Shown here one piece after another: positions 33,265 through 37,506 of a stretch of DNA of 64,000 bases. The notes under the pieces are model-generated. The model ran no database searches. It saw only the letters and a program-made list of their open reading frames with translations, and had not been told where the DNA came from. Origin of the DNA: a bacterium (GTDB taxonomy: Bacteria > Zhuqueibacterota > Zhuqueibacteria > Zhuqueibacterales > Geothermadaptataceae); the NCBI GenBank assembly GCA_024275575.1, contig JAJRYV010000134.1, forward strand, positions 140,297-204,296, in the 5' to 3' direction. Within the stretch, counting starts at the first letter, position 1. The number at the start of each line of letters is the position of its first letter. The translations under genes and the position numbers were made by a program.

Positions 33265-34482
33265 ATGGATAGAATGACAAAACAGCATCTTTTTAGAATA
33301 ATAAACTTAAGCGTGTTGGCCGGCCTGCTTTTTACTGCTCAAATAGAGGCAAATTCTCTTTACTCCAAGTTTGGCATCGGCATATTGCGTCCCTATGCCG
33401 GCGCATCCTATTTTGGACAGGGCAATATCGGGGTTGCATCGTATAGCCCCATCGCTTTGCAATACTTAAACCCGGCATCTCTCGCATTTTTAAAAAGAAC
33501 CCGTTTTGAAGGCAGTTTCCTTTATGAAAAAGCGGATGTCAAAGCCGGGGGAGCCACCGGGAAATTTACCGATTCCGGGTTTAACACTTTGCATATTGGC
33601 ATTCCAATGACCCGGGGGTATGCGATATCTTTCGGTTTGATGCCGTACAGCGTTGTCGCCAACATCTATGAAGAAGTGGTCGAAGGATCGTATCGCAATG
33701 AGCTCATCGGAACCGGCGGACTGGAACGTGGTTTTTTACGCTTCTCCGGCCGCATCGGCAGCCGTTTCGCTTATGGCGCCGGCCTCGATGTTTATTTCGG
33801 CCGCCTTGAAAAAACGTGGCGGGTATTTTTTGAAAATGCTTCCTATCTGCGGACAGAAGACATCACCTCGACAACTGCTGTCGGGATGGGCGTACATCTC
33901 GGCTTTTTGGCGCGTATCTCAAAAATTCTGGATTTTGGCGCTGTGATTGTCGGGCCGACAACATTGAGCACGAAAACACAGGTTGATTATACTTTTAAAA
34001 ATGAAGCATCGATCACTGAAGGCGAAATAAGACTACCGCTGATACAGACTTATGGTCTTAATTTTCACCCGAATAATAAACTCATCCTGCTCGCGGATTT
34101 TGAAGCAGGCAACTGGGGCAGCCTGAAAGCGAGCAATCTTCTCGGCGCAGAAACGACGAATACAAAACGCTTTGGAGTTGGACTTGAATATGCCCCTTCG
34201 CGAAAATTATACGCCAGTCTATGGAAGAAGATGAGTTACCGCATTGGTTTCAATGTGGGTAATTTGCCCTATCTCAACAATGGAAAAGAGATCAATGAGC
34301 GCTTTTTTACCGCAGGCCTGACTTTGCCCTATAATGCTTTCAACAGCCAGTTGGAAATGGGTATCGAATATGGCAAACGCGGTAACGAAAGCGAGCTCGG
34401 TAGTGAGGAAACCATTTTTCGCTTTGTATTCGGCATCGCCAGTGGTGAAAAATGGTTTAACAGACCGCGTGGCCGTAAATAA
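33265..34482 (+). CDS. Outer-membrane beta-barrel protein (FadL/PorV-like)
   Basis: Signal peptide; SLYSKFGIGILRPYAG start; repeated amphipathic aromatic strands; C-terminal FRFVFGIASG. Confidence 0.6.
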   Translation: MDRMTKQHLFRIINLSVLAGLLFTAQIEANSLYSKFGIGILRPYAGASYFGQGNIGVASYSPIALQYLNPASLAFLKRTRFEGSFLYEKADVKAGGATGKFTDSGFNTLHIGIPMTRGYAISFGLMPYSVVANIYEEVVEGSYRNELIGTGGLERGFLRFSGRIGSRFAYGAGLDVYFGRLEKTWRVFFENASYLRTEDITSTTAVGMGVHLGFLARISKILDFGAVIVGPTTLSTKTQVDYTFKNEASITEGEIRLPLIQTYGLNFHPNNKLILLADFEAGNWGSLKASNLLGAETTNTKRFGVGLEYAPSRKLYASLWKKMSYRIGFNVGNLPYLNNGKEINERFFTAGLTLPYNAFNSQLEMGIEYGKRGNESELGSEETIFRFVFGIASGEKWFNRPRGRK

Positions 34483-34682: not shown

Positions 34683-35982
34683 ATGCGTTCAAAAAATGAG
34701 AGTATTCGAAAAGTTCTGTTAAGTTTGTCATGCCTCGCTTTTGTGTGGTTAGCCCTTTGGGGATGTGCTTCCGGGCCAAAAGTTACTCAGGCAGAATTGG
34801 ATGCGCAAGCCCGCGAAGCGGCTCGCCAGGACTCCATAAAGCTGGATTTTGAATTGAAGAAAAACTGGAGTCTCGGTTATGAAAACTACAAAAATAAAGA
34901 GTACACTCGCGTTGTGCCCTATTTTTGGAAAGTTGTCGAACTAGATAAATACAAGGCATTTCTTCCCGTGTATAATGTTCTCGGCCGGACTTATTTTGAA
35001 CTCGGCAAACCAGATTCGGCTCAGATTGTTTATGAATATGGACTAAAGGAAAACCCTGATAATGTTTTTCTTAATCGCAGCCTCGGACATATTTATTCCA
35101 GTCGCCACATGGATGAGCAGGCAATCGCGGCCTATGAAAAAGTTATCAAACTGGAACCGGGAAAAGAAAATGACCTGGTGGCCCTGGGAACCCTTTATCG
35201 TAAAACGGATAATCTCGACAAAGCCATCGAAGTTTATAAACAATTGAGCAAATTGGCGCCCGACAATCTCGAGTATCGTGAAACATTGAATGGTCTTTAC
35301 AGCCAGACCGGCGATGAAGGTGCCGTTGTTGAAGGCCTGCTGGAAATCATCACCAAAGACCCCAACAATACACAAGCGTTGTGGGATTTGACGAATTATT
35401 ACCGCAACCAGCGGGACTGGCCGAGCGCTATTAAATATTTGAATAAAATTCTGGTAATTTCTCCCGGAGATGTGGGCGCGCGCAAAGAACTTGCCGAACT
35501 GTACAAAACAAATGAGCAGTATCGGTGGGATGGCTTTTTAGAATTATCGTAAAGCTATCGCTGAATATACAATAATTCTAAAAAGCCATCCCACCGATGC
35601 TGAAATTTTGACTGCGCAAGCCGCCTCCTATAAAGAATTGGGCAATTTAAAGAAAGCTCGCAGCATCGCACGCAGAGCCCTACGTGCAGAACGTGGATTC
35701 GGGCAGGCGAACATCGTTATCGCACAGTGCTATGAAGCGACTGTCGATGAATGCCAGCAGGCCGCCGGCCGCGCCGGCGCCAATTTTTATGATAAACTGG
35801 CCTATAAAATGGCGGCAGACGAATACACCAGAGCCATGCGTGACAACAGGGTGGCCGACCGTGCCAGGGCGCTGAGAGAGGCGCTGGCCCCGGTTCTGCC
35901 CTCAAAAGGTGATCTGTTTTTACATAAAAATAAAAAGCTGACCGATAAAGCCGCCGTATGTTACCAATGGATGGTCAAATAA
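34683..35982 (+). pseudogene. TPR-repeat lipoprotein, interrupted (ORFs 34683-35552 and 35608-35982)
   Basis: Lipobox LALWGCASG; TPR units on both sides; frame broken by a 25-nt inverted-copy insertion at 35520-35544. Confidence 0.85.
35521..35598. repeat. 27-bp perfect inverted repeat with 24-nt spacer
   Basis: ATCGGTGGGATGGCTTTTTAGAATTAT (35521-35547) and ATAATTCTAAAAAGCCATCCCACCGAT (35572-35598). Confidence 0.98.
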
Positions 35983-36219: not shown

Positions 36220-37506
36220 GTGGAATTTTTAAAGAAATTTGACCCCGAAATTGCACAGTCAATTGAAAGGGAGATCAACCGGCAAAATAATACGCTCGAA
36301 CTCATCGCTTCGGAAAATTTTGTTAGCCGACCGGTGCTGCAAGCGATGGGGCAACCCATGACCAATAAATATGCCGAAGGTTATCCCGGCAAACGATACT
36401 ACGGTGGTTGTGAATATGTGGATACCGCAGAAGAGCTGGCACGCAACCGTGTCAAAAAAATATTTGGCGCCGACCACGCCAACGTACAGCCCCATTCGGG
36501 CTCACAGGCCAACATCGCCGCCTATTTTTCGTTGCTGCAACCCGGTGATACCGTTCTCGGGATGGACCTCGCACATGGCGGCCATCTGACCCACGGCAGC
36601 CCGGTTAATTTTTCCGGCCGCATTTTCCGCATCATTTCCTATGGCGTTGACCGGGAAACCGGCCGCATCGATATGCAGCAATTACGGGAAATTGCCCGCC
36701 GTGAGAAACCGAAAATGATCATCGCCGGCGCCAGCGCTTATTCCCGCGAGATCGACTATAAAATTTTTCGCACAATCGCCGATGAAATTGGCGCCAAATT
36801 GGTCGCCGATATGGCACATCCGGCAGGACTCATCGCTGCAGGTATTTTACAAAGCCCGCTACCCCATTGTCATATCGTGACCTCCACGACGCATAAAACT
36901 TTACGCGGGCCGCGTGGCGGTCTCATTCTCATCGGCAAAGATGGTGAGAATGACATCGGCGTCACTACACCGAAGGGGCGCAAGAAAAAATGGTCGGAAA
37001 TCATCGATTCCAATATTTTTCCAGGATTTCAGGGCGGCCCGCTAATGCATGTCATCGCCTCAAAAGCAGTGGCATTCAAGGAAGTTTTGCAGCCCGAGTT
37101 CAAAACTTATGCAAAACAGGTGGTGCAGAATGCTAAAATACTGGCACAAGAGCTGGTAGACCTGGGTTATGATATCGTTTCCGGCGGTACTGATAACCAT
37201 CTGATGCTGCTCGATTTAAGGTCGCATAAACAAACCGGGAAAAGCGTCGAAGAAACGCTGGAAAACGCCGGTATCACAACCAATAAAAACATGGTGCCTT
37301 TCGACCCGGAAAGCCCGTTCGTTACCAGTGGAATTCGTATCGGTACGGCGGCATTGACCACGCGTGGAATGAACGAGGATGCGATGAAAGAAATCGCTTT
37401 TCTCATCGATACGGTCATCAATAATATGGATAGCAAGAAAACATGTGAAAAAGTGCGCGAACAGGTTCGGGATCTGTGTGAAAGGTTCCCGTTATACACT
37501 TTTTAA
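36220..37506 (+). CDS. glyA: Serine hydroxymethyltransferase
   Basis: [60 protein letters not shown] start. Confidence 0.98.

Follow-up and report, generated by a model that had tools for sequence, protein, structure and literature searches.

What does the split gene at this locus represent: one gene broken by a real mutation, a gene that is switched on and off, or an error of sequencing or assembly? The locus lies in the window (the whole 64-kb stretch of DNA analysed here, positions 140297–204296 of the 204-kb contig C116), which belongs to the genome of an uncultured Calditrichota bacterium (4.96 Mb, 144 contigs, 97.7% complete). A preliminary description of the sequence had proposed that a TPR lipoprotein gene is broken by 25 nt copied from the opposite strand by an intramolecular template switch with TATCG microhomology, and had offered a mutation, a phase-variable switch and a foldback artefact as possible readings. 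As described below, a real and recent mutation is the best supported of the three. The features of the locus are listed in Table 1.

Table 1. Features of the interrupted TPR lipoprotein gene and its neighbours (positions in the window)
Feature	Positions	Strand	Basis
BamG-family-like outer-membrane protein, upstream conserved neighbour	33265..34482	+	full-length match, below curated cut-off
TPR lipoprotein gene, 5' two thirds, 289 aa (residues 1-279/280 genuine)	34683..35552	+	ORF, orthologues, alignment
Span of outer imperfect repeat CAGTATCG/CGATGCTG (7/8), pre-existing at empty site	35517..35602	+	empty-site comparison
Inserted inverted copy, 25 nt	35520..35544	+	missing from both congeners in alignment
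TATCG direct repeat, copy 1	35520..35524	+	sequence
Left arm of perfect 27-bp inverted repeat	35521..35547	+	repeat scan
TPR lipoprotein gene, 3' third, 145 codons and stop, open, conserved, out of frame with 5' part	35545..35982	+	alignment, orthologue match
TATCG direct repeat, copy 2	35545..35549	+	sequence
Loop, 24 nt, inversion leaves frame broken	35548..35571	+	loop-flip test
Right arm, original of the copied sequence	35572..35598	+	repeat scan and congener alignment
Serine hydroxymethyltransferase GlyA, downstream conserved neighbour	36220..37506	+	neighbourhood comparison

The interrupted gene, which is single-copy in its genome, encodes a conserved outer-membrane lipoprotein with TPR repeats and a lipobox (the latter by inspection). 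Its upstream ORF picks up some foreign residues before an early TAA (35550–35552); downstream, the correct frame is open from the second TATCG copy to the stop codon at 35980–35982. Orthologues are widespread among the 60 genomes searched, and all 29 that were fetched (two from same-genus relatives, the congeners G001 and G002, which are the Calditrichaeota MAGs CLD2 and CLD5, and 27 from more distant genomes) have a single uninterrupted frame of 424–502 aa. Close relatives were compared, as had been suggested as a check: the alignment with the congeners contains exactly 25 extra nt in the window and is otherwise collinear through the stop codon with no other break, and deletion of one 25-nt unit would restore the frame, as had been noted. 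The N part is 79% and 72% identical to the congeners, and the two halves match one G001 ORF in different frames, with 79.4% and 75.9% identity. This rules out that the ORFs encode two separate intact proteins, which had been named as a possible refutation, and annotators should be aware that the two ORFs at this locus are one gene. Another possible refutation, that relatives all carry the palindrome within a functional frame, fails as well, since the palindrome was found in none of the relatives and both congeners are without the 25 nt. As polarised by the relatives, the alignments show that the ancestral gene was intact and that the 25 nt are a later insertion.

The repeat geometry was also as described. 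The left arm (ATCGGTGGGATGGCTTTTTAGAATTAT) is the exact reverse complement of the right arm, so that a perfect 27-bp inverted repeat, its arms 24 nt apart, lies inside the gene; with mismatches allowed, the arms reach 35517–35551 and 35568–35602 (35 nt, 94%). The inserted 25 nt (TATCGGTGGGATGGCTTTTTAGAAT) are the reverse complement of sequence about 50 nt downstream and are bounded by the two copies of TATCG, and because TATCG stands at both ends the placement of the insert is ambiguous by 5 nt (from 35520–35544 to 35525–35549). Among perfect inverted repeats of at least 16 nt within 400 nt, the 27-bp repeat is the sole case in the window, and the longest such repeat in 20 local shuffles of the window was 13 nt. 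By chance, 22 nt that form an inverted copy of the following ~100 nt would be expected with a probability of about 5e-12. The RNA fold of the repeat region has an energy of -58.1 kcal/mol, as compared to -17.9 in shuffles (z -13.1).

With the insert removed, the site reads CAG/TATCG...CCACCGATGCTG, an outer imperfect inverted repeat with 7 of 8 bases paired. CAGTATCG and CAGCATCG match at 7/8 positions, and this imperfect inverted repeat was already in place where the strand switches occurred. While DNA was being synthesised, the growing end ...CAGTATCG would pair with the nearby inverted match CGATGCTG, copy about 20 nt inward on the opposite strand (GTGGGATGGCTTTTTAGAAT), and then regain its own template via the TAT/TATCG microhomology, which would leave 25 additional nt and a 27-bp hairpin. 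With the alternative polarity, the other growing strand would fold back via ATA/TAT and return via CGAT, giving an identical product. The data do not choose between the two polarities; the + strand shows a G-rich skew, which suggests that it is the leading strand. Either way, two strand switches are required (out and back), which is the signature of a quasipalindrome template-switch mutation. A single recent mutation of this type in this strain is the best explanation, to which we assign a probability of about 0.76, because the insertion is exactly 25 nt, is an inverted copy in origin, is accompanied by microhomologies, and is set against intact relatives. The intact ancestral gene and the inverted-copy insert thus support the template switch with TATCG microhomology that had been proposed.

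Quasipalindrome mutations have a published account from the E. coli thyA hotspot and from lacZ QP reporters (PMC7202029). As in the E. coli cases, an imperfect inverted repeat has been made more perfect by a local out-and-back switch that frameshifts a gene, but the lacZ reporters score a 4-bp change, whereas here 25 nt were gained and the stem grew from 7/8 pairs to 27 perfect ones (PMC7202029). Unlike the hotspot and the reporters, the present case is a single one from a natural Calditrichota genome. Four-point template switches create perfect stems in one step (PMC8794818), and our locus resembles them in having a perfect reverse-complement repeat beside its source, from one event; the published cases are microRNA and rRNA hairpins, whereas here a protein gene is broken (PMC8794818). 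The locus offers an unusually clean natural example of a bacterial gene with a long insertion made by template switching: the sequence still shows what the ancestral state was, where the two switches lie and which quasipalindrome was there beforehand. The case is recent and comes from an uncultured phylum, but it reveals no new mechanism.

The main competitor is an artefact of library preparation, amplification or assembly, in which a foldback or hairpin-primed read became part of the consensus where coverage was low. Library-preparation chimeras form at imperfect inverted repeats (PDSM model, PMC10908179), and the empty site is that kind of place; like PDSM chimeras, the insertion is located at an imperfect inverted repeat and joins opposite strands. 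PDSM chimeras, however, are low-frequency reads with one strand change, and here an out-and-back insert is found in the assembled consensus (PMC10908179). A foldback chimera has one junction and continues on the other strand, whereas at this locus the original strand resumes after ~20 nt, which needs a second switch. In addition, the site is interior to the 204-kb contig, and the 7/8 repeat of the empty site is probably too short for a k-mer assembler to have created the copy. When 111 orthologue pairs were compared between this genome and a congener, only this gene was frame-split, which implies a high consensus quality and rules out general poor assembly or general indel error as the explanation. 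In favour of an artefact, the gene and its fixed neighbours are conserved throughout the class, and an intact copy would be expected; losing its last third should therefore be costly, which counts slightly towards a minority variant or an artefact. In this assembly, contig C44 also begins with a perfect 66-bp palindrome (L093:1-132, no spacer), probably a foldback assembly end. On balance we consider an artefact unlikely, while still the most serious of the alternatives, and the mutation appears to have occurred in the cell, not in the tube.

Two further readings would let the gene still be expressed. In reversible phase variation, the 25 nt would be lost and regained between the TATCG repeats, or the loop would be inverted, toggling the lipoprotein. 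In its favour, the locus combines a direct repeat with a hairpin and retains an intact, conserved 3' frame; however, a stop codon remains when the 24-nt loop is flipped, which excludes loop inversion as a rescue and disposes of the suggested phase-variable option in its form of an invertible on-off switch. Moreover, the direct repeat is just 5 nt, the element is carried by no relative, and the repeat scan, which covered fetched stretches totalling 2.08 Mb (42% of the genome), yielded no further matching case, so that phase variation is very improbable. The same low standing applies to a version in which the template switch and a deletion between the TATCG repeats turn a BAM-linked lipoprotein off and on at strain level, both states coexisting in the population; with a 5-nt repeat, such a deletion would restore the frame as an ordinary rare reversion. 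In translational rescue, ribosomes would pass over the insert by hopping from the TAT at 35520 to the one at 35545, or would change frame, and would still produce full-length protein. The matched TAT codons on both sides of the gap and the conserved downstream frame fit this reading, but template switching fully explains the origin of the insert, the insert is in one genome only, recency explains the intact downstream frame equally well, and inspection revealed no known bypass or slippery signal; we regard rescue as the least credible of all.

How long ago the template switch took place can be judged from the decay of the downstream part. At the columns conserved among relatives, the C part in the window shows no greater deviation than its counterparts in G001 and G002. 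In the N part, the window and G001 each have 18 unique amino-acid changes; in the C part, the window has 19 and G001 has 7, an excess that is not significant (p=0.11). An old pseudogene is accordingly not supported. Since the C part has no significant decay and the repeat arms are still identical, the event appears recent on the scale of species divergence.

As to the product, the insert shifts the frame and places a stop ten codons further on. From the sequence, the expected product is a truncated lipoprotein in which the signal peptide/lipobox and the N-terminal TPRs are retained (~280 genuine residues) and the last ~145 residues are missing, and its function is probably reduced. Both orthology and synteny identify the gene as the predicted TPR lipoprotein of a Calditrichota BamG-GlyA neighbourhood: a BamG-like gene is found near it in 26 of the 29 fetched orthologue loci and GlyA in 24 of 29, and several of the loci without a BamG-like or GlyA neighbour are cut by contig ends. 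The BamG-like protein of the window matches NF053685 over the full model with 218.7 bits, below the cut-off of 250. In Bacteroidota, the BamG family is a conserved and essential subunit of BAM, the machine that inserts outer-membrane proteins (PMC12611786). From its position, one might speculate that the TPR lipoprotein works with its BamG-like neighbour, and the Calditrichota BamG counterpart and its TPR partner may merit study.

Apart from this locus, no gene-breaking perfect inverted repeat of at least 22 nt was found in the 2.08 Mb scanned of the same genome, and a congener control (0.4 Mb) contained no perfect in-range repeat longer than 17 nt. The only other notable gene-breaking candidate in the 2.08 Mb is on contig C108 (L105:3315-3400; arms 19 nt, loop 48), where it sits inside an RND-pump gene that is also broken at two other places, and corresponds to a 1-nt deletion as compared to a 60%-identical relative. 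This candidate may represent another quasipalindrome change, in a decaying gene, but it does not match the insertion described here, and the 2.08 Mb thus give no sign of a genome-wide hairpin-insertion process. The idea that the mutation arose because hairpin-cutting or exonuclease genes had been lost was rejected, as SbcD- and ExoVII-like genes are present. A plasmid search gave no match. The pump gene itself (AcrB-type, L105:2743-5644) has three breaks, one of them at the perfect 19-bp inverted repeat. Another palindrome was observed on the contig that includes the window (C116, L035:10543-10584); it is a perfect 21-bp palindrome with no loop, located at the end of an 866-codon open frame, and is probably a bidirectional terminator.
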